37,018 nucleotides of DNA from Rikenella microfusus (GTDB lineage: Bacteria; Bacteroidota; Bacteroidia; Bacteroidales; DYQK01): NCBI GenBank assembly GCA_020719385.1, contig DYQK01000022.1:1-37018 (forward strand), read 5' to 3'. A program made the translations under genes and the position numbers. Shown here piece after piece: positions 121 through 32,788 of this stretch. Under the pieces are notes generated by a model. It was not told the DNA's origin and ran no database searches. It was given only the letters and a program-made list of their open reading frames with translations. Each line of letters starts with the position of its first letter. Within the stretch, counting starts at the first letter, position 1.

Positions 121-3100
121 TTATTTCACAACAAATTTGTGAATCTCAACTTTGTTGTTTTTTCTAATTTGCAAGAAATAAATTCCTTTCGCAAATTTCG
201 AAACATCAACATTCGTTTTTTCGCTTGTAATTGGTTGATTTACAAAGATTTTCCCATCAACATTTAAAATTGTAATGTACGAATTTCTCTCGGCTTCAAC
301 GGTTAATTGCGAGGAAACAGGATTCGGATAGATAGAAATTTTACTTTCAAAAGTATTTATTCCAAGAGCCGCAAGAATCAGGGTTTCAGTAATATCGGCG
401 TTTGTAACCGTTAAAGTTCCTCTTATTGTGTTGTAACCTGTTTTCCAAATTTGATACGGATAAGTACCTGCAGGAAGTAAATCTTCGATTTTTCCATTTG
501 CGTCAGTTAGAACAACGGTGTCAAGCATCGAAACAGAAGCATTTGCAATTGCTTTGTTTGCTTTATCTTTTACCACAAAAGTAACTTTGTAGATATTTTT
601 CAATGTTACCTGCAAAGAAGTATCATTTGAAAAATTTAACGTATCAACGAATGGAATATACAAATTTTCTTTCATCACAACGCAAGCATATTGCCCTTCA
701 TTTACATTATTGAGTGAAAGTTTGCCTTGTGCGTCTGTTGCTCCTGAATAAATTGTTGATGGATTTGCAATATTTTTTAAATAAATCGAAGCATTAGCGA
801 TAACATTTCCTTGTTCTTCTTTTACTGTGAAAGAAATTGTGCAAGTTTTTGTCGTAGGAACTAAAAGTACAGGCATTCCAACAGGAATATTAATTACTTT
901 CACTGTGCCGTTTGTTGTTGTGTAACCATCTTTCTCAACTTGATAAGTGTAATCTCCTGCTTTCGCTTCGAAAACTGCTTTCCCTTGAGCATCCGTAATC
1001 ATTGATTCGGAGTTAAAAGTAACAACTGCATCGGCGATAGGTTCGTTGTTGTTGATATTTAAAACGGAGAAAGTCACTGAATAAGTTGCTTCGCTGAGGA
1101 TAACATTGATAATTGTATCAGAATTTAATGTTAAACTTCCAGCAAAAGTGTTGAAACTTTCTTTTTCAACGGAGAAGGTATAAGTTTTTGGCAATAATTT
1201 CTCGACAATAACTTGTCCTTGTGCGTCAGTAGTGAAATTTTCCTCATTAATTTTCAAAATAGCACCTTCGAGAGTTGTTCCTAACGCATTTTTCACAATA
1301 AATGTTGCGTTGTAAGTAATTTTTTCCAAACTTATCTCGATAGTTGTATCAGAATTTAACGTTAAATTACCGTTAACTGCTTGATACGAGGTTTTTGTTA
1401 CGGAATAAGTGTACGAATTTTCTAAAACATTATTGAAAACTGCGATTCCTGATGCATTTGTGAGTTTTGTTACCGTGCCAAGAGTGATAACTGCTTCAGC
1501 AACAGGAGTAGTTCCTTCAATTACATTAAACGTAACATCATAAGTTCCTTGAGGATTTATTTCAATGAAATATATTTTTGTAGTGTAACCGTCTTCAGCA
1601 ACACTATGAAGTTGATAACCACTTTGCAAATCATTTGCAACGGTGATTCCGTCATTTTCATATATTTCATAACTTCCGTTTAAAGGTTCATCAACGTTCA
1701 ATTCAAATTCTGACAAAGTTGTTCCGAAAGGAATATTCGAGATAATTTCTGCACTGTCATCAACATTATAGATAGTCGAAGTAACGCAAGGATTATGGTT
1801 GACATTGTCTTCTTCTATCATTACGTCATCAACGTATAAAAGCCATTGTAACGCATCGCTAAATCCGTGGAATCCGAAGTAATAAACACCGTTGCTGTCG
1901 GGCGTGAACGGAGCAATATGTTCTATCCATTCCTCGTTGTTCATTTCTGTGTCATAAAACAAAGGTGAGGTAGTGTTCATTGCTGTTGAGTCGTTGTCTG
2001 TTCCGATGTAGACGCCCATTTTTTCTGTTGTTGAATTTTGATAAATTGCCACTTTGAACCAGAAACGGAGTGCGTAACTTTTTCCACCTTCGAGTTGCAT
2101 CGGCGGAGTAAATAACCAATCATTGTTGGGATGTAACATCGAAAAAGCAAGGTGCATTCCTTGATTTCCTGAATGTGCGTTGTTGGGATAAGTTGAGCTG
2201 TTGCGAATCATATCCCAAGATTGGAATTTTTCGTTTGCGTTTTGCAGCGACCAACCCATCGGATATTCGTAATGATATTGATAAGATTGATGCGAGACAA
2301 CATTCTCGAAACCTTCCATCCATGGAAAGTCGAAACTGTTGGGTCAGACATTGTTGAGAAATTCCATACAGGGCAGTTTAATGCATCGCCAACTGCGTTG
2401 TAAGGGACAATTTTCCAAAAATATGTTGTTGAATATTGAATGTCGAAGTTGCAAGCCCATGTTGTTGTGTCTTGTAAATCGATTCCGTTAGCGATACCGC
2501 GTCAAAGGCTTCGAACAAAGTTGGGTTATTTGCGAGAATAGTTGCGTTGAGAAGTAAATGATTATCTCCGTTGAAAGCACCGTTGATGTTAAACGTAACG
2601 GTTTGCGAGGGTGTTCCTGTTTCTGTTGCGTTCAAGCGAATCTCGATGGTGTCGCTTGCGTTTGGCTGAATAATGCTTCCTGTGTATGTTGTTGAAAATG
2701 GCGGATTTATACTTAATCCCGAAATATTTAACGCACCGTTTCCCCAATTTGAAACAACAACTTTTGTTGTTGTCGTTCCGTTCACAAATAATTCTCTAAA
2801 ATTATACAACGATGGAGAAATATGAATTTCAGGCGTGTTGTCAAGGTTTGAAACGGTAATATCGTCCAAGAAAAATTTATTGGTGTTTATCATTCCTTGA
2901 ATGTGAGCGAGATAATATCTCCAACGAAAATAAACATTATTTCCTGAATTTATTATGTAAATTTCGCGAACGTAATTTTGCATTGCAGCGGCAGTTGTCA
3001 ATGTGTCGAGAGTTTGCCAAGTGTTACCGCCGTCATAAGTTACTTCGAAAAATGTTGAATCTACGCTTCCTGAAACATACGATTTCCACCAGAAAGACAA

Positions 3101-4239
3101 AGACTTCGGTGCATCAATATTGAATTTTGGGGTCATCAAAGTGTAATAACCTGAATCCCAAGGAGTGCAATAAGCGCAGAAAGTGCTTTGATGAGCGTAA
3201 TTTGGTGTTGAATGATCGTTCATATGCCAAGAACCTGAACCCGTTGTCGGATAAGTCCAGCCAGAAAGTAACGGATAATTAATGTTTATTGTAAGCGAAT
3301 CTTCGCCTTCGAAACCCATTTCCCACGGAAAAGTTGAGATAACTGCTTGCGTTTTAAATTTCCAAAGCGGCGAGGTGCTGCTTGCTGAAGCGTTTTTCGC
3401 AACAACTTTCCAAAAATATCTCGTATTAGGTGTCAAAAGAGTCGTTGGGAACCGTAACGTCCGGGTGCAGTAACTGCTCCATTATCAACAACTTTCGCAG
3501 AAGCAGACAACAAGGCAACAGCAGCTGAATCTGTTGCAAAATACATATCATAAAAAGTTACTCCATCACCTAATTCGCAAGAAACTAAATCTGAAACAGA
3601 ATTCTTTACCGAATTGCTGACAGGAATTTCGCTTGTCGGAGTCGGAAGTCCTACGTAATACAAGCGAATGTCGGGCAAACCTGACGGATAAGGATTCAAA
3701 TATCCCGGCGTTGTTGGAAAACTAACATCATTTCCACTACTTTTATTGTCGTTAATTGTTGAAGTTGTTGCGTAAAAATTCGCATAAGACGCAGAACCAC
3801 TTCGATTTTCCCAATGTAAAATCAAATTATCGCTGCCGTTATAAGCGAAGGACGTAGATAACGCAATTTGATTCCAACCAGGGTTTAAAACTAAATTTCC
3901 TTCGAAAACTTTTGTGTAACCATTGCTTTCGGGATTTTCGTAACCCGCATCACCAAAAATGACTCGCGAATCATTTTTCAGATAAATTTTTTGATTATTG
4001 AACGTTTTTTGTGCATTTGTAGACATATTTATACTCAAATGCGTAATACTTTTTGCTGCACCGACAGCAGATTGCGGATAAATAGCCGAATACCACGCAT
4101 AATTCCACGAAGTATAAAATGGATAAGGATTATTCGTTTGATTTCCTACTCCAATTTCCACGTAACTTTGTGCCGACAAATTTAATATCGACAAGAAAAA
4201 CATCAACAAAATGCCAAGAGAAACTTTACAAAACTTCAT
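121..4239 (-). pseudogene. T9SS-secreted multidomain surface protein split by three frameshifts (ORFs 3433-4239, 2378-3436 and 121-2319)
   Basis: N-terminal signal peptide MKFCKVSLGILLMFFLSILNLSAQ; choice-of-anchor-like segments; about five repeated ~80-aa CarboxypepD_reg-like modules; C-terminal SKISIYPNPVSSQLTVEAE...KGIYFLQI sorting domain. Homologous text continues across the frames: '..TAPG-TLRFPTTLLTPNTRYFWKV', 'NGIDLQDTTTWACNFDIQYSTTYFWKIVPYNAVGDALNCPVWNFSTMSDPTVSTFPWMEGFEN'. Frames (mod 3) step 1>2>0>1, as expected for three -1 events. Confidence 0.8.
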
Positions 4240-4384
4240 AAACTGATTTTTTATTTGTTTTCTGAAAAATTTTAATGAGACAAAATTAAAAAAAAATGTT
4301 TAAAAAAAGAATAAAATGTAAATTATTTTTTTTAATTTAACTACAAAATAAAAACATTTTTCTATTCTGTGCAAGAGAAATATA

Positions 4385-4432
4385 GTTGAAGTTGCGAAAA
4401 TCGGGGTTGAAGTTGCAAAAATCGGGGTTGAA
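4385..4432. repeat. 21-bp tandem repeat, about 2.3 copies
   Basis: GTTGAAGTTGCGAAAATCGGG / GTTGAAGTTGCAAAAATCGGG / GTTGAA in the intergenic region between divergent genes. Confidence 0.8.
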
Positions 4433-4497
4433 ATAACATTTCGCAAATTTTTTTCATTTTATTTCTAATAAAATTCCCAATAAAAATTATTTATAAA

Positions 4498-4528
4498 TTT
4501 GTAAATTTTGAAAAATTTTGTATTTTTG
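4498..4528 (+). promoter_or_regulatory. Bacteroidetes primary-sigma promoter TTTG-N19-TATTTTTG
   Basis: TTTG at 4498-4501, 19-nt spacer, TATTTTTG at 4521-4528, 21 nt upstream of the ATG at 4550. Confidence 0.65.
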
Positions 4529-4549
4529 CGAAAAATTTTTAATGAAAAA

Positions 4550-5638
4550 ATGAAAAAATTATTTCAATTAGGTGCTTCGGTGCCGCAAAAAACTTTGCTC
4601 GCAATAGAAATTTTGGGATTAATATTTTTTCTCCTCGTTTGGTTTGTCATAACTTTTCCCGTTGAAAATACAGCAATTCAATTCTCCTCAAATAATGCGA
4701 AATTGCCTTCAACGTACAAATGGAAATTGCCCGATAACTCGCTGCAAAATTTCAACGGCGACAACGTTTTGATAAACGCAAAAACAGGAAATTACGAATT
4801 TACTTTTATTGACAGTTGCGGCTGCGAAATAAAAGCAACATTAAACGTTCCGAATAAAATTTCTGACAAAATCTCGAAAACTTTCGAAACGCAATGCAAA
4901 AAATCAAAGCAAAATATCACGCTTTCTGTCGATATTTTAACCAACAAAGACGGCTGGCTCGTCAGTAAAGGTACTTTGCCAACGCCGCAAAGCGTCATCA
5001 TTTCCTACGGCGACTTAATGAAGGATTTTGTCATTTGGGAAACAGGTTACTCATTGATATTAAACATCTTAGGTTATCTCGAAGCAATTTTATTCTCGAT
5101 AATATTAGGTTTTCTCATCGGATTAATACCGTTTTTCAGAGGACTTCTCAGCCGTTATGTGAACGCAATACGTTTTATTCCGCTAACCGCTGTAACAGGA
5201 ATTTTTATTGCATGGTTTAGTATTTATACAAATATGAAAGTGCAATTTCTTGCGTTTGGCATTTTTGTGTATCTTTTGCCTGTTGTTGTGCAACGCATTG
5301 ACGAAATTGAGAAAGTATATTTGCAAACGGCCTACACGCTTGGGGCGACAAAATGGCAAACTATCAAAGATATTTATTTCCCGTATGTTACCTCAAAAAT
5401 CATTGACGACATACGCGTCTTGACCGCAATCTCTTGGACTTACGTTATTATTGCAGAAATGTTAAACCAAACTGGCGGAATCGGAGCATTAATTTATTTG
5501 GCAGGAAGACAAAGCCGAATAGACAAAGTTTTTGCTTTGTTGTTGATAATCATAGTGATAGGAATTTTGCAAGACAAATTTTTCTCTTGGTTAGACAAAA
5601 TTTTATTTCCACACAAAACTCGAAAAACAGCAAAATAA
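4550..5638 (+). CDS. ABC transporter permease (SsuC/TauC-like BPD_transp_1) with an extracytoplasmic insert after TM1
   Basis: C-terminal permease core with the EAA-like loop 'AYTLGATKWQTIKDIYFPYVTSKIIDDIRV'. The start is moved from 4508 to 4550 because the -7 element (4521-4528) lies downstream of 4508. Confidence 0.8.
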   Translation: MKKLFQLGASVPQKTLLAIEILGLIFFLLVWFVITFPVENTAIQFSSNNAKLPSTYKWKLPDNSLQNFNGDNVLINAKTGNYEFTFIDSCGCEIKATLNVPNKISDKISKTFETQCKKSKQNITLSVDILTNKDGWLVSKGTLPTPQSVIISYGDLMKDFVIWETGYSLILNILGYLEAILFSIILGFLIGLIPFFRGLLSRYVNAIRFIPLTAVTGIFIAWFSIYTNMKVQFLAFGIFVYLLPVVVQRIDEIEKVYLQTAYTLGATKWQTIKDIYFPYVTSKIIDDIRVLTAISWTYVIIAEMLNQTGGIGALIYLAGRQSRIDKVFALLLIIIVIGILQDKFFSWLDKILFPHKTRKTAK

Positions 5639-10298: not shown

Positions 10299-10331
10299 AA
10301 AAAGTCATCGCTTTTTTGCGATGACTTTTTT
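10299..10331. terminator. Bidirectional hairpin terminator
   Basis: AAAAAGTCATCGC tttttt GCGATGACTTTTTT between convergent genes. Confidence 0.85.
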
Positions 10332-10345
10332 TATAGAAAAAAATA

Positions 10346-10654
10346 TTACTCATTTAACTCATAATTATCTTCAAAAACTTCTTTTTGCGTTAATTCTTTA
10401 ACATCAGCGGATTTTCCCATTTCAATTTCTGCTTGTTTCTGTGCTTTTTTAAAACAATCTTCCCAATTTTCAATGATTTCTGAATTTGCAATTTTTTTAT
10501 TTTCAAAAGATTCTTTATTTATTTGATTTCTCGCATCATTTATGGAGTAAACCCAACTATGTGAACGTTTTTCTGGTTGCGATTTCCATTTTATTACGTG
10601 CAACATTAAACGTACTAACTGACTTAATAATTTTTTTATTGTAGTTTTATTCAT
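10346..10654 (-). CDS. DUF29-like protein (short form)
   Basis: 'LLSQLVRLMLHVIKWKSQPEKRSHSWVYSINDARNQI' matches the DUF29 helix pattern (LL.HLLKW..QPE.RS.SW...I...R..I). ATGA overlap with the upstream gene. Confidence 0.65.
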   Translation of the reverse strand: MNKTTIKKLLSQLVRLMLHVIKWKSQPEKRSHSWVYSINDARNQINKESFENKKIANSEIIENWEDCFKKAQKQAEIEMGKSADVKELTQKEVFEDNYELNE

Positions 10655-11160
10655 AACTGAAATTTTTCGACATAATTTTTTGTCATTTGAGAAATTGTTT
10701 TTGTTTTCTCAAAATTTTGTTTTCTCGCATATTCTGTAACATATTGATTTTCAAAAACTTCACTCCAAGAAAGTTCTGAAATTAAACATTTCTGATTCAA
10801 TTTTGCTTCAACAGCAATTTTGGCTGATTTAAAAATATCTGTCCATTTTGATTTTAAAAATTCAGCAGTGATACAAGGAATATAATTTAAACGCCACTCT
10901 AAATCTTCGAAAGTATTTTCTATTTCAACCATTATTTCGCCTGTCTGAAATTTTTTGTCTGTCTTCCACAATAAAATTAACTCCATTAATTTTTGCAAAA
11001 CATCAAGCGAATCGTTTTGCTCGGTAAGAGTGATATGCAAAAAATAAATTTCTAAACCTTCAGAAACATCTGCATATTTTTTCTCATCAAGCAAATTTTT
11101 TATTTTTCGAATAGTTAAATAATCCGAAAGCAAACACAATTTTTCCCAATTTGTCTTCAT
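10651..11160 (-). CDS. Diverged DUF29-like protein
   Basis: Internal similarity to the neighbouring ORF: 'FLKSKWTDIFKSAKIAVEAKLNQKCLISELSWSEVFENQYV' vs 'EIIENWEDCFKKAQKQAEIEMGKSADVKELTQKEVFEDNYEL'. Confidence 0.5.
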   Translation of the reverse strand: MKTNWEKLCLLSDYLTIRKIKNLLDEKKYADVSEGLEIYFLHITLTEQNDSLDVLQKLMELILLWKTDKKFQTGEIMVEIENTFEDLEWRLNYIPCITAEFLKSKWTDIFKSAKIAVEAKLNQKCLISELSWSEVFENQYVTEYARKQNFEKTKTISQMTKNYVEKFQL

Positions 11161-11167
11161 AAATTTA

Positions 11168-13315
11168 TCAATTTGTTACGTTGAACTTCAAAATTGTGGG
11201 TTCTAAACGCAGGTTGTTGTCTTCTAACTGAATACTTCGAATCACAACTTTTATATTTCCGCTGTTTCCTCTTTTTGTGATGCACTTGCAAAAATTGAAA
11301 ATATTTGTCTCCTCACAAACCACAAAATTGCTGCTTGTCGAGGCTTCGATGCGAAAAGATTTCACAACATTTTTTACATTCGCAAAAATTTCTCTGGGAT
11401 AATCCTTCGCAAATTCCAATTCTAATTTTGCTCTTTGCAAATTTGCGAGAGAAATAGTTTCTTGGTTGTAAAATTCTCCGTTGACAAACAATTTCGGTTT
11501 TACCGAGATTTTTTCTGCTTTAAAAACAATTGTTTTCGTATTTTTCGTTCCTGAATAAACGTTTAAAATTTCCATTTCTACTGGAAAATAACCTTCTTGC
11601 GTTGCAAGAATCTCAAATTCGCCGCGCAACAAACGAGCATCATTATCTGTTATCGCAACATTATTATTTTTTGTGATTCGCAAAATTCTCGCAGATTTGT
11701 CTTTATACAATTTTTTTATCCCGACAAATAACGTTAAACTCTCTTCGGAGGGCAATTTTATTGTTGACAAATTGCTAATCATTCTCTTATATTCCTTGCT
11801 TTTCTGATTTTCTTGTTCCAATTCTTTCAAAATCATTTCGATTTGATTTTTCGATTCCATCAAAAGCTGGTCTTTGATATACAAAGAATCGCGTTTTTCT
11901 CTCAAATTCCTTTCTCGAATATTTAACTCTTGCGTATGTTTTTCCAACTCGTTACTAAACTGAATTTGCAAAGTCCTTCGCTGAAACCATTGTTTGTAAC
12001 CGTAAAAAGTCGGAATACTAAACAGAATCAAAATAAAGACAGCGAGACAAATGATAAAAATTTTCTTATTTCTGATGTGTCTCTGACTTTTTTCGATAAA
12101 AAGTTTTTGCTCAACAGAGACTGACAAATCGGCAAGATGCGGAGTAATAAACAAAATTTCCTCTTTCGTCATGAAAGAGTTGGTCGTTCTGTGTGCTTTG
12201 TACGAACTTTGAATAACTAAAAATGCTTCGGCAGCGGCTTTTTCCTTCGCAGTACGATGTGCCGCAACTTTTGCCGCCAAACTGTCGTGTGTTAACTCAT
12301 AATTGTCATCGTTTAACTGAATAATTCGAAATTCCTCTAATAAATTTAAAATTTTCATTAACTGCATTCGCAAGAGATTGGTTTTTTCCCGCAATTCTTG
12401 GAGTGTTGCTGAAGCGCGCGTGCCTTCTGACGTAATTAAATTTTTTAAAACCGCCCAAACCGTGCCTTTCTCTCCGATATTTTTCTCAATAACTTTCACT
12501 TGCTCCTCTAAGAATCTGCCTAAAACGTCTTTTAATTCGCCGATTCGTTCTAACAATAAACCATCAAAAATACAAATTCCATCTTTTTTCGTGGCATTCG
12601 ACATTAAACGGTCTAAATAAACTTGTAAATATGGCAAATCTACATTCCCTTTCTCGTCAGAGAGATTGCTAATAATTTTGTTTACTATATATTCCTTCTT
12701 TTCAACATAAATATCGCCTTTTTCAATAATATTTGAGATAACATTGAACAAAACATTTTTTCGCATTCTTTCCAGCCGAATCCGATGGTCGTAAATATTG
12801 GGGACAACGGCTTCGAAATCATCAATACACGCAAGATATTCCTCGCGAAGAATCAAAATGATTTTAACATTTAACGTACTTTTCGATATTTCAGACAAAA
12901 AATTTATAAATTCATCATATTCTTCATCTTTCGAAGAGATAAATAATTCCTCGAATTGGTCGAAAATGATGGTTATGGGCAGAAAATAATCGATATACAA
13001 ACTATTTAACGCTTCGATAATCGGAGCATTTGTGCTTATCAAAGTGTCTGCTTTCGAGATAATTGCGTTTCGAAGTGATTTGATAAAATTGTTACCCCTT
13101 CGCACATAAAGCGGAAACCATTCGTCATCGGCATAACGGTTGGCGAGTCCGCACTGAACAATCGAAGTTTTGCCCGTTCCCGACAAACCATAAATTAATA
13201 ACAATTTTGCAGCGCGCGATTTTTCGTATATCTTCTCGGTTTCCTCGTTGCGACCAAAGAAAATATCTTTGTCCTCTTTTGTGTAAGGATTTAAGAATTT
13301 TATTGGGTTTTTCAT
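11168..13315 (-). CDS. STAND-type NTPase (nSTAND1-like) with TM helix, coiled coil and beta-rich C-terminal region
   Basis: Walker A 'GLSGTGKT' (aa 43-50); Walker B-like 'ITIIFDQFEELF' (about aa 114-125); 'FGRNEE' N-terminal motif; winged-helix-like segment 'LRMQLMKILNLLEEFRIIQLNDDNYELTHDSLAAKVAAHR'; hydrophobic helix 'KIFIICLAVFILILFSIPTFYGY'; heptad-rich segment after the TM. Confidence 0.85.
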   Translation of the reverse strand: MKNPIKFLNPYTKEDKDIFFGRNEETEKIYEKSRAAKLLLIYGLSGTGKTSIVQCGLANRYADDEWFPLYVRRGNNFIKSLRNAIISKADTLISTNAPIIEALNSLYIDYFLPITIIFDQFEELFISSKDEEYDEFINFLSEISKSTLNVKIILILREEYLACIDDFEAVVPNIYDHRIRLERMRKNVLFNVISNIIEKGDIYVEKKEYIVNKIISNLSDEKGNVDLPYLQVYLDRLMSNATKKDGICIFDGLLLERIGELKDVLGRFLEEQVKVIEKNIGEKGTVWAVLKNLITSEGTRASATLQELREKTNLLRMQLMKILNLLEEFRIIQLNDDNYELTHDSLAAKVAAHRTAKEKAAAEAFLVIQSSYKAHRTTNSFMTKEEILFITPHLADLSVSVEQKLFIEKSQRHIRNKKIFIICLAVFILILFSIPTFYGYKQWFQRRTLQIQFSNELEKHTQELNIRERNLREKRDSLYIKDQLLMESKNQIEMILKELEQENQKSKEYKRMISNLSTIKLPSEESLTLFVGIKKLYKDKSARILRITKNNNVAITDNDARLLRGEFEILATQEGYFPVEMEILNVYSGTKNTKTIVFKAEKISVKPKLFVNGEFYNQETISLANLQRAKLELEFAKDYPREIFANVKNVVKSFRIEASTSSNFVVCEETNIFNFCKCITKRGNSGNIKVVIRSIQLEDNNLRLEPTILKFNVTN

Positions 13316-15018
13316 AAAATTTGCTTTTCAAAAATTTCCATTCCTAAATCAAATGGATTTAATTCGTTGTACGGTTTCGAGTCATTTTTCTCAAAACTTG
13401 TCACATTTTGATATAAAAATTGGTCGTTTTCATTTTTCCCCGAATAAAAATAAATATCAGGAATCTCGGTTTTTTTATTCTTTTCTGTCATAATTGCTTG
13501 AGAATCAATGAATAACGGATGCAAATTTATATAATCAACAATAGAATTCTCCTGTTTATTATAATGAATAAACAAAATCGAGTTCGTATTGGTTGCCTCG
13601 CTTCGCATAGAAAATAACTTTTTAAAATCATTTCCCATTTTTTCCCAATTTTCATATTGAACAGGCTCGTCGCCCTGCAAAAGACTAATGCTGTGATTAT
13701 ATTTTATATCTTTGTATTTGGGAAAATTAACTCGCACTTCACGAATCGAAATTAATTTATAATTCACTAAAATACTGATAGATTCTATCAAAATTAAAAT
13801 TGCTTTTTTAATTATGTCTATTGAAACTGCGTTTGTTTTTGCCGTATGTAATTGATTTATCGCATTTTGCAATTTTGTATTTGAGAAATCAATTTTGTGA
13901 ATAAAAATATCTATATTATTTTTTTTCAACTCGGAAATCAAAACGGGCAACAACTCCATATAAAACACATCATCAGGCGAATCAATTCGCATCAATAAAA
14001 TTTTACACTCACTGCTGATAGCAAAATTATTTTTACTTCGACACTTCTCTAATTGTGCGAGATAAACGAAACTTAAAAATTGCAAAATTCTCTCAAAAAG
14101 ATGCAAATAAGCGTCTGTTGACGGTTCTTTGCCAAATAATTTACTCAACGGATGCGAAATCGGATAGGGAAAATGTTGCAAAAGTTTCTGTTTCAACTCG
14201 TTTATCATTTGCGGACTTTGAGAATCAATAATTAATTGCACTTCCTCTTGAAGCGAAGGATTTTCTTTGGAAATATTTTTTATAACATTAACCCATTGAT
14301 TATCAAAATTTTGCACAGGAGCAGCGAAATTATTCTTTGCAACAACAATTTCATCAACTTCGTTTTGCGAGGAAATTTTGGGAACAGGAAAACCTTTCTC
14401 GACAAGATTTTTTTTCAAATTTGAATAAACCTCGCGCCACGTAATCTCGTTTTTCCCGTTGTCTATTCCATTTTTTAAAATATTGAGAAGTTCGTTGGTG
14501 AAAGCAGAAAAATCCGAATCAACAGGATATTTCGAAGTACGATTTCGCGCAGAAGAAGCGATTAATAAATAATTTGACATTAAAAAATTATCAAACGCTT
14601 TTTCACTAAAACACGAATCCATCAATAAAATGACCGTTAAATTTTTATTCTTAGAAAGTGCTTTGTTTATTTCTGTAATTTCATAACCATCAATATCGAT
14701 ATTTTCAACGGTAGAATTCGTTAAAGTGAGATAATGACAACTATTTTCGTCTAAAATTCCGTGACCCGCATAATAAATAACGAGAGTTTTTATGCCATCT
14801 TTGGTGGCGATATTTCTCAATTCTGTTGTTAAACGCGTTTTATCTGTCGGATTTTCCATCACAACAATATGGTCGCGCGTCAGTCCGATGCTTTGACTTC
14901 GCAAAATTTTATCTAAACCCTGAACGTTAGTCCATGCTTGATTTAATGCGTGCAACGACTCATCTGCCGTATATTGACTAACAGCAACTAAAAATGCGTA
15001 TGTACTTTGTGAATCCAT
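13312..15018 (-). CDS. Caspase-like (peptidase C14) protease with large C-terminal region
   Basis: Caspase dyad motifs 'LVIYYAGHG' (His86) and 'VILLMDSCFS' (Cys136); 'LIASSARNRTSKYPVDSDFSAFTNELLNIL' is typical of bacterial caspase-like domains. 4-nt ATGA overlap with the STAND gene. Confidence 0.88.
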   Translation of the reverse strand: MDSQSTYAFLVAVSQYTADESLHALNQAWTNVQGLDKILRSQSIGLTRDHIVVMENPTDKTRLTTELRNIATKDGIKTLVIYYAGHGILDENSCHYLTLTNSTVENIDIDGYEITEINKALSKNKNLTVILLMDSCFSEKAFDNFLMSNYLLIASSARNRTSKYPVDSDFSAFTNELLNILKNGIDNGKNEITWREVYSNLKKNLVEKGFPVPKISSQNEVDEIVVAKNNFAAPVQNFDNQWVNVIKNISKENPSLQEEVQLIIDSQSPQMINELKQKLLQHFPYPISHPLSKLFGKEPSTDAYLHLFERILQFLSFVYLAQLEKCRSKNNFAISSECKILLMRIDSPDDVFYMELLPVLISELKKNNIDIFIHKIDFSNTKLQNAINQLHTAKTNAVSIDIIKKAILILIESISILVNYKLISIREVRVNFPKYKDIKYNHSISLLQGDEPVQYENWEKMGNDFKKLFSMRSEATNTNSILFIHYNKQENSIVDYINLHPLFIDSQAIMTEKNKKTEIPDIYFYSGKNENDQFLYQNVTSFEKNDSKPYNELNPFDLGMEIFEKQIL

Positions 15019-15141
15019 CGAAAAAAATTATAAATTTTTTAAAATATTAATTTACAAATTCTGTGCAAATTTAGATTTTTCCCTTAAATAAACTTTCAAC
15101 ATCAATAATAGAATTTATTTCTTTGTGAAAAATTTTTGCGA

Positions 15142-15172
15142 CAAATGTAAATTATATTTACCAATTTACAAA
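15142..15172 (-). promoter_or_regulatory. Bacteroidetes promoter TTTG-N19-TACATTTG driving the caspase operon
   Basis: Reverse complement: TTTG TAAATTGGTAAATATAATT TACATTTG, 19-nt spacer; about 120 nt upstream of the ATG at 15018. A second -7-like TAAATTTG lies at 15066-15073. Confidence 0.6.
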
Positions 15173-15196: not shown

Positions 15197-15223
15197 TTCC
15201 ACTTTTTTTCGAGAAAAGTGGAA
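15197..15223 (-). terminator. Hairpin terminator 3' of the PorP/SprF gene
   Basis: TTCCACTTTT/AAAAGTGGAA stem followed by T-rich sequence on the minus strand. Confidence 0.65.
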
Positions 15224-20112: not shown

Positions 20113-21813
20113 TTATTCTATTTTAAATAATTTATCTTTTTGCGATAATTTTAAAATAAAATATTCTTTTTTGTTTAATTCTTGTGGTAATTTATCTTTT
20201 AAAATTGCGACAACAAACTGTATTTGATTATTATTCACAAATTCAGCAATTTTAATTAGCTGTTTGTCATCCATTAATTCTTTTCTGTCATTCAAAACAA
20301 AGTGCAAACAAGGAATATTTTCGTTTTCTGCAAATAAAATATAAGCAATATCAAAACAAGAAATTTCTCCTTGTTTTTTTCCCGACCCAATATTCAAATT
20401 AAATGTGGTAAAATCGTAAAATTTTATTCCTTTGTTATTCCTCTTTATTTCACAATTCAACGCATAAGATTCCTCATACAATTCTTTTGAAATTGCAGCG
20501 AAAAATTTGTTAAATTTATCTTTTTGATTTTTTACAATTTGTTCTGTATCTTTTGAAAAAAGTTTTTCGTCAACGTTTATTAGTTGTTCGCTCAACTTTT
20601 CCAATTCTTGTTCAATTTCACTTAACTGATTAATCATTGTCTCATATTCTCCTTTTAACCGAAATTTGTCGTGTAATTCTATGTCCAATTTTCGCATTTC
20701 TTCCATAGTATCTGTTTGTTGAGTCAAAGATATTAATTCATCCTTCACTTTTTTTAATTTCTCTAAATCCTGATTTTTTAATTCTAATTTTTTTTCGAGA
20801 TTTGGTAAATCTTGGGTTATAAATTTCACTTTTTCCTTAATCATTAAATTGTGATATTTCACTAAATCTTCGAATGTTTTTTGAATTCCATCGATTAACT
20901 TAGTCGCTTGTTGATATATAATATAAAGTTGTTCAGAGTCAATGTTTGCAAAATCTGATTCTAAACTTTGTTTTGCCTCAAGAATTGTGCGTCTGCGAAT
21001 GTTTAGAGTGCTAATTTCTGCACTCACTTTATTTATTTTATATTTGACGTTGTCTAATTTCTCAAAATCTTCCATTAAATTTTCATTAGAATTTAATTTC
21101 TCTTTTTTTTGTTTGAGAATTAAAATTTCATCTTCCAAAACTTTCAATGCAGTTTCATAAAAAGATTTTGTTTGTTGTTTTTCAATACGTTTTTTAAATG
21201 TTTCTTCTTGTTTTATTTTTGCTAAGATTTCTTCTCTATCGCTATTTTCGACATTACATCCAAATAAAAACAAAAACAGAGTTTCATATTCTGCATCTGT
21301 GGTATATTTGTTCAAAGTTTTCAATGTATGTTCATTTTTGTCTTCGCAACGAATATGATGAGAAATAATTTGGCGAAATGTAGGTTTTTCTACATTATGA
21401 TGAGAATAAATTAATTGTAATAATTTTTGTTCAAATTCTTTTTCAGAAAAATTTTCTCCATTTATTTTTCGAATACACTCTTTGCGAGAAAGAAAATTCC
21501 GTTCAATAACAACTTCCTCTGAATCAAAAATATCTAAATTTTGTTTCAAAATTAAGGTGATTAAAACTTTTTTCCCAATTAAAAAATTTTTAACCAAGGT
21601 ATGTTCGTTTTTTCTCGAATCAGGGTCGAGATATATCTCTTTAGATTCTCCACCTAAACAAAAATCAATTAATTTCAATGTTGTTGTTTTACCAATATTG
21701 TTGCCTGTAATTTGGTTTTCACTCTCGTCAACAATGAAATTAATACCTCTTCGGAAATTGATTTCCCGAATGATTTTATTTCCCGCAGATATAATTAACG
21801 ATTTTATGAACAT
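20113..21813 (-). CDS. ABC-3C system SMC-like ATPase (DUF2326-type)
   Basis: 'INFIVDESENQITGNNIGKTTTLKLIDFCLGG' Walker A; long coiled coil; C-terminal 'ISCFDIAYILFAENENIPCLHFVLNDRKELMDDKQL' typical of DUF2326. Confidence 0.82.
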   Translation of the reverse strand: MFIKSLIISAGNKIIREINFRRGINFIVDESENQITGNNIGKTTTLKLIDFCLGGESKEIYLDPDSRKNEHTLVKNFLIGKKVLITLILKQNLDIFDSEEVVIERNFLSRKECIRKINGENFSEKEFEQKLLQLIYSHHNVEKPTFRQIISHHIRCEDKNEHTLKTLNKYTTDAEYETLFLFLFGCNVENSDREEILAKIKQEETFKKRIEKQQTKSFYETALKVLEDEILILKQKKEKLNSNENLMEDFEKLDNVKYKINKVSAEISTLNIRRRTILEAKQSLESDFANIDSEQLYIIYQQATKLIDGIQKTFEDLVKYHNLMIKEKVKFITQDLPNLEKKLELKNQDLEKLKKVKDELISLTQQTDTMEEMRKLDIELHDKFRLKGEYETMINQLSEIEQELEKLSEQLINVDEKLFSKDTEQIVKNQKDKFNKFFAAISKELYEESYALNCEIKRNNKGIKFYDFTTFNLNIGSGKKQGEISCFDIAYILFAENENIPCLHFVLNDRKELMDDKQLIKIAEFVNNNQIQFVVAILKDKLPQELNKKEYFILKLSQKDKLFKIE

Positions 21814-22031: not shown

Positions 22032-22987
22032 TTTTGGGAGGATTTTTAAAAATTTTACATTTCATAAACGCACTAACAACTATAATACTTGCACAAATAT
22101 CCAATTCTTCATTGGGAATTGGGACAAAATTTGAACTTTGAATCACAAATTCAATAACTTTACCAATAACATCAAAAAATATATCATCTGATTTTTTTGT
22201 TTCATCAATTGCACTGATATAAAATCTCTGTAACACACAACAAAACAGAAATACTTTTATTTACACCTTGCAAATCAAATTCTTTATATTTTTTATCTAA
22301 CAAAGTACAATAAATTGAAAAATCCTCAATAATCATTCTTGCTTTTTCCAATTCATTATAATCTATTTTTCTATCAATCTCAAAATCTTTCGTGTTTATT
22401 GCTGTTTCAAAATTACTCAAATCAGTTTTTGCTAAAATATTCACAATTTCAGCCAAATTTGAATTTAATTTGCTCTCGTCAATATTACCTAATTCTTTTT
22501 TTATAAACTCGTAAATCTCTCGATATTTATCAATATCAAGAGATTTTATTGATTTTAAAATAAAAGTAACATCAATAATATCATCTTTGGGATTAAATTT
22601 TATATTATGGGAATTTGAAAAAGTTTTTCCTCGTAAATCACCTGCATCAGAAACTATTGGAACAAATTTAAAATGATAATTATCTACAGAATAAGTTTTT
22701 ATTTTATTTTTTCCTAAACTTTCCTCAATTTTCTTTTTTGTACCTGTTGCAGAAACTTGAATAACCAATTTATTTGTACGGTCAACTAAATCAATTGCCT
22801 CTACATTTTGTTTTTGTTGATTTTCATTTACTAAACTCCAACCAAATAATTTATTGAGAAAATGTTGATAAAAATCCTCTGAAAAAATATTTTCATCCAA
22901 AAGATTTAATTTTCCTCTTGATTTTATATGTGAAATATGTAAATTTAATTTTTCTTCAATATAATTGAAATAATAAGAATGCATCAT
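22018..22987 (-). pseudogene. SMEK-domain ABC-3C component split by a frameshift near 22231-22240
   Basis: 'FLNKLFGWSLVNENQQKQNVEAIDLVDRTNKLVIQVSATGTKKKIEESL' matches SMEK domains. The expected C-terminus 'LQRFYISAIDETKKSDDIFFDVIGKVIEFVIQSSNFVPIPNEELDICASIIVVSAFMKCKIFKNPPKNVNS' is in a different frame (net +1 nt). The start is placed at 22987 because a TATCTTTG -7-like element overlaps 23014. Confidence 0.75.
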
Positions 22988-23051
22988 AAAAATAAAAGTT
23001 AAATTTTTTGGCAAAGATAAATAATTTTTCTCAGAAAAAACAATTTTTCAT

Positions 23052-28773: not shown

Positions 28774-29352
28774 ATGAACACCTTAGACTTGTCATTACGT
28801 TATACTTATGCCGATTATCTCACTTGGCCGGATGATATTCGCAGAGAATTGATAAACGGTTTTGTTTTCAAAATGGCTGCACCTGCGGCAACTCATCAAA
28901 AAATTTTAGGGGATTTTTATTTTGCTCTAAGATGCTTTTTGCATGAAAAAACTTGTCAAATTTTTGTTGCACCTTTTGATGTGCGTTTTCCCAAAAATGG
29001 CGAAAAAGAAGACGAGAAAGTTTTCACTGTTGTTCAACCCGATATTTGTATTATTTGCGATTCGTCAAAAATTGAAGAACGCGGTTGTCTCGGAAGTCCC
29101 GATTTTATTATAGAAATTGTTTCTCCAAACAATTCTAAACGAGATATCAAAGATAAATTTAAAATTTATGAGGAAAATGCTGTGCGAGAATACTGGATTG
29201 TGCGACCTGACGAGAAAAGTGTGCAAGTTTTTCTGCTCAACGAATCAGGAAAATATTTTTTAGACGGAACTTATACCGATGAAGATTCTGTTCCTGTAAC
29301 CATTTTTAACGGAGAATTAATTATTCAACTTGAAAAAATTTTTAAAAAATAA
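28774..29352 (+). CDS. Uma2 family (DUF820) PD-(D/E)XK-like protein
   Basis: 'ELINGFVFKMAAPAATHQKILGDFYFALRCFL...VQPDICIICDSSKIEERGCLGSPDFIIEIVSPNNSKRDIKDKFKIYEENAVREYWIVRPDEKSVQVF'. Confidence 0.9.
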   Translation: MNTLDLSLRYTYADYLTWPDDIRRELINGFVFKMAAPAATHQKILGDFYFALRCFLHEKTCQIFVAPFDVRFPKNGEKEDEKVFTVVQPDICIICDSSKIEERGCLGSPDFIIEIVSPNNSKRDIKDKFKIYEENAVREYWIVRPDEKSVQVFLLNESGKYFLDGTYTDEDSVPVTIFNGELIIQLEKIFKK

Positions 29353-30859: not shown

Positions 30860-32788
30860 TTACATTTCATAAAAATTTGCAGACATTTTTTTGTCAAAAT
30901 CAGAAACAGAATGCGTAACATCAGAAATTTCAGAAAAATTGACATACAATAAATTTTTATCTAAAACTTCGATTAAAAAACGCTGCTGCTCCGCAAATTC
31001 TAAATTTTCAAATTCTTTTATTTCGGAATTTATCATTTCGGGCAAAATTTTATAACTCAAAAACGCAGTTTTTTGCATTTCAGCCCAAATTTCCAATAAT
31101 TCAGCAGAATTTTCTGCATTTTGAATCGAATCGACAAAATATTGGTTGCTTTTTTGTAATTCGCAAAAAATAAAACTGTCTTCTTGAAGTTTTTCGATGA
31201 CTTTTTGCACTCTCGCAACGGTAACGGTTTCGATATAATCCATTTGTTCGCACAAAATAAAACGTCTGTTTCCGCCATCTTCTCTGTTTAATTCCAAAAC
31301 TGCGTGGGCTGTTGTCCCGCTGCCTGCAAAAAAATCAAGAATTATATCGTTGTTGTTTGGTTCTGTAATTATTTTTAAAACATCTCTTATTATGTAAGGA
31401 GATTTCGGGTAAGTGAAAATTTTTTCACCGAATAATGCTTTTAAAGAATGTGTGCCTGTTTGTCCTGTATATTTATTATTTAACCAAATTGTTTTCGCTT
31501 TTTCACCAACATAATCACATTCTCTTTCTTTTACATAAAAATTATATTCGTTATTCACTCGTTTAACTTCTATATATTTCCCCATTTTATTTAAAAAAGT
31601 TTCTTTACTCCATCTCCAACATCTGTAAACACCTTTTTCGTCAATTGGTAAAATTTCGATAAAACCATCAGATTTTTCAAGTGAAATTTGGTCATTTTGT
31701 GGATTATAATAAATGGGATAATATAAACCAGGACCATCTTCTCGTCTCGAATTATTCCCATTTCGTCTGTAACCTCTTAATTTATAACGACCAAATTTAT
31801 CTCTCAATTTGAATTGTTTAAGTTTTTCATCAGAGACTCCGAGTGAATGAATTTTCACTAAATCTTTGTTTTTTGCATAAAAAATCATATTTTCGTGTGC
31901 TGTTGGGAAAAATTTATCATCTTGTCTACCGCCAGGATTATGAACAGCAGCAATAACACCGATTCTGTTTTCTCTACCAAAAATTTCGTCAGCCAAAACT
32001 CCCAAATAAAATAATTCATAATGGTCAATTGCTGTAACGAAAATTCCGTCTTCTCGCAAAAGTTCTTTTGCCACTTCTAAACGATTTTTCATAAACGTCA
32101 GCCAAGTCGAATGGTTAAAAGTGTTGTTGTACGAAAAAGTATTTGCCGAAGTTGCTGTGTTGTAAGGTGGGTCGATGTAAATAAGTTTAATTTGTCCTTT
32201 GTATGTTGCTTTTAGCGAGCAAAGTGCGAGCAAATTATTTCCCTTTATCACAAAATTATCTTTTTTTGCGATATTTTCAGGTTTTGTTTGTCCGTTTTTG
32301 TCAAATTTTTTCCAATTAGTCAACACTTTTGGGGCAGTAAGCACATCAATGTCGTCGGGCGCGAGTGTTGTGTTATAAAAAATTTCGTTTCGTTTAGTTT
32401 CCTCTTTTGTTTGTCCTCCTTCGAGAACGCAATCTTTGTGTGGCCAGACGAGCACCATTTCTCTACTTTCTGCGATGAATTTAAAATCTTCGTTTGCGAT
32501 TCCGATTTTATTGGCAAATTTTGTATAATTATCTGCCAAGAACTTTTTAGTGTTGACGAATCGTTGAAATGCCACTTTGTCAAAAATGGTAATTCCTTCG
32601 ATTTCTGTGAAGAAATGTTTTTTAATATTCTGATGTTTTAACAGAATTTTGATTAATTCGGTGTCTAGTCGAAGTGCTTTGTCGATGATAAGTGGTTTAT
32701 TGAGTGCTGGTTTGCCGTATTTGTCGGGCAACAGCAGTCCTGGCATTGCGTTCAGATGTTGAATTAATTCGTTATAGAGATTTTGCAT
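30860..32788 (-). CDS. Site-specific DNA-methyltransferase, type III Mod-like (adenine)
   Basis: Beta-class arrangement: 'LIYIDPPYNTATSANTFSYNN' (DPPY) followed by 'NNDIILDFFAGSGTTAHAVLELNREDGGNRRFILCE' (SAM site). Confidence 0.9.
   Translation of the reverse strand: MQNLYNELIQHLNAMPGLLLPDKYGKPALNKPLIIDKALRLDTELIKILLKHQNIKKHFFTEIEGITIFDKVAFQRFVNTKKFLADNYTKFANKIGIANEDFKFIAESREMVLVWPHKDCVLEGGQTKEETKRNEIFYNTTLAPDDIDVLTAPKVLTNWKKFDKNGQTKPENIAKKDNFVIKGNNLLALCSLKATYKGQIKLIYIDPPYNTATSANTFSYNNTFNHSTWLTFMKNRLEVAKELLREDGIFVTAIDHYELFYLGVLADEIFGRENRIGVIAAVHNPGGRQDDKFFPTAHENMIFYAKNKDLVKIHSLGVSDEKLKQFKLRDKFGRYKLRGYRRNGNNSRREDGPGLYYPIYYNPQNDQISLEKSDGFIEILPIDEKGVYRCWRWSKETFLNKMGKYIEVKRVNNEYNFYVKERECDYVGEKAKTIWLNNKYTGQTGTHSLKALFGEKIFTYPKSPYIIRDVLKIITEPNNNDIILDFFAGSGTTAHAVLELNREDGGNRRFILCEQMDYIETVTVARVQKVIEKLQEDSFIFCELQKSNQYFVDSIQNAENSAELLEIWAEMQKTAFLSYKILPEMINSEIKEFENLEFAEQQRFLIEVLDKNLLYVNFSEISDVTHSVSDFDKKMSANFYEM

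Follow-up and report, generated by a model that had tools for sequence, protein, structure and literature searches.

The window that we analysed, a 37,018-nt stretch of Rikenella microfusus contig DYQK01000022.1 (assembly GCA_020719385.1), belongs to a genome of 3.66 Mb in 288 contigs and includes genes of type IX secretion (PorP/SprF and Por secretion tails). Four genes lie together on its minus strand: gene 1 (13312-15018), which encodes 568 aa; gene 2 (11168-13315), which encodes an nSTAND1 NTPase of 715 aa; gene 3 (10651-11160), which encodes the first of two DUF29-like twins (169 aa); and gene 4 (10346-10654), which encodes the second, a DUF29 protein of 102 aa. As the first-pass annotation described, the genes are joined by an ATGA overlap, a 7-nt gap and a second ATGA overlap, and a terminator lies downstream, a minus-strand hairpin between convergent genes (10299-10330) with a stem that folds at -18.3 kcal/mol (z -5.9). 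Another terminator-like hairpin (15197-15223) parts the unit from the upstream PorP/SprF gene. The same annotation had placed a consensus promoter upstream, of which the site holds (15142-15171, minus strand) but the sigma-70 type does not, the better fit being the Bacteroidota pattern TTG-N17-24-TAnnTTTG. This candidate reads TTG-N-TACATTTG, and a second match to the pattern, TTG-N-TAAATTTG, lies closer to the start of gene 1 (15066-15099, minus strand). The two sites upstream of gene 1 compare with 0.06 expected in 216 nt from the pattern frequency of the window itself, and a sigma-70 scan found promoters not in excess (28 versus 24.2 expected). When the four-gene unit was compared with PADLOC, no whole-system model matched, the hits being confined to a generic caspase model (4.4e-5) and some weak ones to ATPases.

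Elsewhere in the window, we observed further candidate defence genes, which encode a DUF2326 protein (20116-21813) that matches PADLOC model PDC-M68B (1.2e-35), a nearby protein (22205-23014) that matches the first part of an Aga_REase model (4.7e-22), a protein that matches PADLOC candidate PDC-S03 (28774-29352; 6.5e-50) and a type III restriction-modification methyltransferase (30860-32788).

Caspase and domain X of gene 1

In gene 1, residues 1-228 (14335-15018, minus strand) match Pfam Peptidase_C14 with 32.8 bits against a gathering score of 21.4 (7.2e-8) and keep the catalytic pair named in the first-pass annotation, with H86 in YYAGHG and C136 in MDSCFSE. By its profile and His/Cys dyad, we assign this N-terminal domain to the C14 caspases, which predicts proteolysis. 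The whole genome contains 16 C14 caspase matches. The remainder of the protein, residues ~229-568 (13312-14334, minus strand), forms a second conserved domain of ~340 aa that had been overlooked and that we call X. When gene 1 was searched against 295 genomes of the order, one orthologue (51%) matched over its full length and one paralogue turned up in the genome of the window itself; further matches covered either the caspase alone (several) or residues 245-549 alone, the latter in ORFs of ~350 aa. Several contigs that gave X ORFs were also matched in an nSTAND1 search of the order. Alignment placed X in the C-terminal 340 residues of gene 1, which are matched by a profile of the stand-alone X proteins at E 7e-25. 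Among the loci fetched, only two caspases of the genome bear X. An HSDR_N match in gene 1 (19.4 bits) fell below its cut-off and within X, and was taken as a chance match. Searches of PDB sequences with gene 1, gene 2 and X profiles gave no significant match, and AlphaFold models of gene 1 and of X alone, built from an alignment with one relative only, had pLDDT values of 49 and 55. We found no description of X in the literature searched.

The pair of caspase-X and nSTAND1 genes recurs as a paralogue in the same genome (L071) and as an orthologue in another family of the order, with identities of 51% and 58% for the orthologous pair. The paralogous caspase-X gene (L071:272-1997, on contig C165) is interrupted within the caspase domain by a frameshift, for which an assembly error and a pseudogene both fit and cannot be told apart. 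We also scanned 85,462 species genomes for gene 1 by means of two short peptide patterns taken from close relatives, a method that is blind to distant ones; it recovered a single locus, on the orthologue's contig that was already known.

Domain X also occurs on its own. Stand-alone X proteins of ~350 aa are encoded upstream of nSTAND1 genes, mostly directly (L077, L081, L082, L088 and L200), and the spacing is often a 4-nt overlap or a gap of less than 150 nt. A DUF4143 ATPase gene lies between the two in L074 and two small genes in L075, and X and nSTAND1 are about 5 kb apart in L073. The stand-alone-X profile also finds X as the C-terminal half of the gene preceding nSTAND1 in further genomes, fused behind TIR (L083), behind CHAT (L155, L201 and L202) and, in L156, behind a region that matches PADLOC model PDC-S60 and that we call DUF4062-like from its appearance, Pfam giving no match to it. 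The eight effector-fused X domains thus comprise three with a caspase, three with CHAT, one with TIR and one with the DUF4062-like region, and the caspase of the window is one of several effectors that occupy the same position.

Another possibility is that gene 1 belongs to an EACC1-type two-gene system (PMC7159879), in which a membrane EACC1 partner would activate the caspase. The caspase domain scores 131.9 bits against the NCBIfam model caspase_w_EACC1, and combinations of caspase with a domain that we read as EACC1-like occur in the order (L116 and L029). However, this score is below the curated cut-off of 140, two local EACC1-like queries found no EACC1-like ORF in the window, the partner of gene 1 is an nSTAND1 protein, and the domain fused to its caspase is X; we consider this explanation very unlikely. 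The locus may share its caspase subfamily with EACC1-caspase systems (the profile score falls just below cut-off), and it resembles them in having a caspase with an exchangeable partner domain and in its membrane association, but it lacks EACC1, its exchangeable part is the X-fused caspase, and its second gene encodes a STAND NTPase. The L029 gene (2642-4957), in the window's own genome, encodes a single chain that runs from the EACC1-like N-terminus through the caspase to a WD40-like end.

We also compared the X sequences with one another. In the alignment, all 12 stand-alone X proteins carry RNxxxH at one aligned position, and none of the eight effector-fused X domains does, including that of the window. 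The motif is also missing in L063/L084, where X is broken, and in L203, which has a dead X; neither has a recognised effector. The active site of HEPN RNases is R-x4-6-H. The stand-alone X of L081 matches HEPN_RiboL-PSP (20.3 bits) and HEPN_Apea (19.5 bits) below the Pfam curated cut-offs, and it weakly matches the PADLOC Cas13a model (9.6e-5) over residues 117-163, which span RNxxxH. The AlphaFold model of X is mostly helical at low confidence, and Foldseek of X against the PDB returned nothing significant, the weak matches including the HEPN chain 8xeh_D (target TM-score 0.54). We infer that X is HEPN-like and may adopt the fold of the HEPN superfamily, an analysis of which has been published (PMC3710099). 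At L204 (6351-14526), related HEPN-like domains with RNxxxxH are fused to an Avs2-like NTPase (NCBIfam 7e-10), and three ORFs with near-identical start sequences follow this fusion.

In a tree of nSTAND1 NTPase domains, which leaves X out, the partners of dead X cluster in a single clade (98/98) amid those of live X, and the fused forms also group in an earlier tree with fewer rows (93/99). Because the dead-X partners fall in one nSTAND1 clade, the eight fused cases are not independent, and the loss of RNxxxH in them may be a single event. The simplest reading of these sequences would be one loss of the motif, followed by exchange of the N-terminal effector.

Gene 2 and the ends of nSTAND1 proteins

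Gene 2 matches nSTAND1 (PF20703) with 135.2 bits against a gathering score of 27.1 (6e-39, residues 8-347), and the Walker A (GLSGTGKTS) and Walker B (IIFDQFEE) motifs reported for it are intact. A single transmembrane helix is predicted at residues 419-437 (12005-12061, minus strand; hydropathy peak 2.89), and a helix at this position was found in 15 of the 16 nSTAND1 proteins examined, mostly with basic residues before it, which by the positive-inside rule suggests that the C-terminal part lies outside. This part, which in the window extends over 11168-12004 (minus strand) and is the proposed sensor, is variable among relatives. The nSTAND1 protein of L073 (8142-10217) ends in the third and fourth domains of GldM (Pfam 3.3e-17 and 3.8e-18), and a local profile detected GldM-like ends in L074 (2564-4966) and L075 (5376-6317, a C-terminal fragment), so that nSTAND1, membrane helix and GldM domains are combined in these proteins. 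By sequence, the ends in L075 and L088 look like FGE-sulfatase domains, and others are TPR-like (L081), LRR (L156) or WD40-like (L155). For gene 2 itself, a GldM-like end was not borne out (E 0.02 with the local GldM profile and a probability of 1% in hhalign), and its C-terminal end gave no significant match to the sensor types of its relatives.

A speculative reading, to which we give little weight, is that nSTAND1 proteins watch the periplasm and that some carry copies of GldM as decoys of the gliding/type IX motor, the end of the window protein having diverged. If so, an attack on the motor would free the effector via the HEPN-like adaptor, namely the caspase here and an RNase, TIR or CHAT in relatives. 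The GldM-like domains that terminate three related nSTAND1 proteins, together with the numerous caspases of the genome, would also suit a housekeeping role in signalling or stress regulation, such as surveillance of the envelope or type IX secretion, in place of phage defence. We regard such a role as quite unlikely, as nSTAND1 relatives are patchily spread (at E<=1e-10 in 30 of the 295 genomes of the order, with close relatives in fewer), effectors are swapped with TIR, CHAT and HEPN-like forms, and candidate defence genes lie nearby.

DUF29 genes in and beyond the locus

The first-pass annotation had joined all four genes into one system with twin DUF29-like proteins. Gene 4 is a member of DUF29 (PF01724), with 53.0 bits against a cut-off of 22.5 (5.3e-14). 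Gene 3 has no Pfam match above threshold, scoring 16.1 bits for DUF29 against the same cut-off; its description as a divergent twin is based on this sub-threshold match and on homologues that match both genes, which show its kinship to gene 4. Homologues of gene 3 also adjoin those of gene 4 elsewhere. DUF29 occurs in only five of the 295 genomes of the order, and genes of the gene-3 and gene-4 kinds mostly form pairs or tandem arrays where it does. Across 17 other DUF29 loci (eleven from the order, six from elsewhere in the phylum), a survey in which several contigs are short and some loci end at contig edges, neither a caspase nor an nSTAND1 gene lies beside DUF29. Two of these loci, L143 and L016, the latter adjacent to polA, come from the genome of the window itself. 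Conversely, DUF29 is absent behind the paralogous pair at L071, and the other X/nSTAND1 loci that we read are likewise free of it; for the orthologue, the contig stops within gene 2, which cuts off its downstream side. On this neighbourhood survey we reject DUF29 as a conserved part of the system, and with it the conserved partnership that had been proposed; this is the outcome that the first-pass annotation had itself named as a refutation. The conserved unit is two genes, not four, and the DUF29 twin looks like an optional cassette of its own, an accessory or passenger of the window copy.

The four genes could still act together in this lineage, with the DUF29 twins sensing, inhibiting or serving as substrates of the caspase or STAND protein. 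The genes are co-directional, overlapping or nearly so, and share one terminator, and accessory genes vary among related loci: the paralogous and orthologous loci (L071 and L072) have an LRR gene upstream of their caspase gene, which the copy in the window lacks, and in L156 the nSTAND1 protein itself carries fused LRRs. Because the accessory genes of the unit vary, DUF29 could matter in the window copy, perhaps by supplying in trans the sensor role of the LRR gene. In L108, another DUF29 pair follows an AAA_35 ATPase gene at a distance of 58 nt. Nevertheless, the 17 loci devoid of caspase and nSTAND1 genes, including two in the same genome, and the paralogous pair devoid of DUF29 argue against a single four-gene system, and we consider it unlikely. 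The L108 ATPase gene is the second of two tandem AAA_35-type genes with the same start sequence (639-4932). Our literature searches found no paper that links the DUF29 family to caspases, STANDs or conflict systems. Among plasmid relatives, DUF29 was found in only three cyanobacterial plasmids (30-40% identity), nSTAND1 in one and X in none, so that nothing points to a unit carried on plasmids. As a conserved trait, the tie to DUF29 was a false lead, which is now removed.

Genes 1 and 2 as a candidate conflict system

Our preferred explanation, which we consider probable, is that genes 1 and 2 are one member of a modular STAND conflict system that comprises two genes in Bacteroidota, here with a caspase carried on a dead-HEPN adaptor. 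The earlier proposal of a conflict-type unit of caspase and membrane STAND protein is supported in outline by the paralogue, the orthologue and the effector swapping in relatives. Adjacency of X and nSTAND1 is conserved, effectors are exchanged on X, and RNxxxH is absent from all fused X domains. The nearby candidate defence genes back a conflict role by association only. We infer contact between X and the STAND protein, sensing, protease activity, killing and a role in phage defence. Gene 2 would be a membrane-anchored nSTAND1 switch with an exchangeable part past the membrane helix that probably senses the threat, and gene 1 would be the effector, a caspase carried by the HEPN-like adaptor X. 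X may be a former HEPN RNase that lost its active site and couples the effector to the STAND protein; the effector would be exchangeable on X, and the caspase in the window apparently took the place of an RNA-cutting enzyme. Upon sensing, the NTPase would oligomerise and X would cluster, which would activate the caspase by proximity; the caspase would then cut host or self proteins, with arrest or death of the cell as the outcome.

Bacterial conflict systems centred on nSTAND1 have been described (PMC8195603), including hypermutated examples (PMC10907252). These share with the locus an nSTAND1 NTPase, a neighbouring or fused effector and variable sensor ends, but they are tied together by EADs, death-like domains or diversity-generating retroelements, whereas the constant link here appears to be the dead HEPN-like X. 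CARD-NLR systems such as LypABC (PMC13236601) likewise combine a protease with an NLR-like ATPase and lyse the cell through the protease, an outcome that we propose here; they differ in using trypsin-like peptidases and a CARD adaptor, in contrast to a caspase, X and an NTPase that another family model matches. The antiviral STAND NTPases, Avs among them, follow the same effector-NTPase-sensor logic, and the Avs2-like NTPase of L204 bears a HEPN-like domain, but here a gene of its own encodes the effector and a membrane helix is part of the NTPase.

The main finding is X and the exchange of effectors on it, and the caspase/STAND conflict unit, a variant of known systems, is supported in outline. 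If our preferred explanation is right, effectors are exchanged on a dead enzyme, a HEPN RNase turned docking domain for caspase, CHAT and TIR, and the STAND partner stays constant while the effectors on X change. It would furthermore provide a simple rule, X beside nSTAND1 with the motif kept or lost, by which more such systems could be found and sorted and which predicts for each how the cell is stopped.
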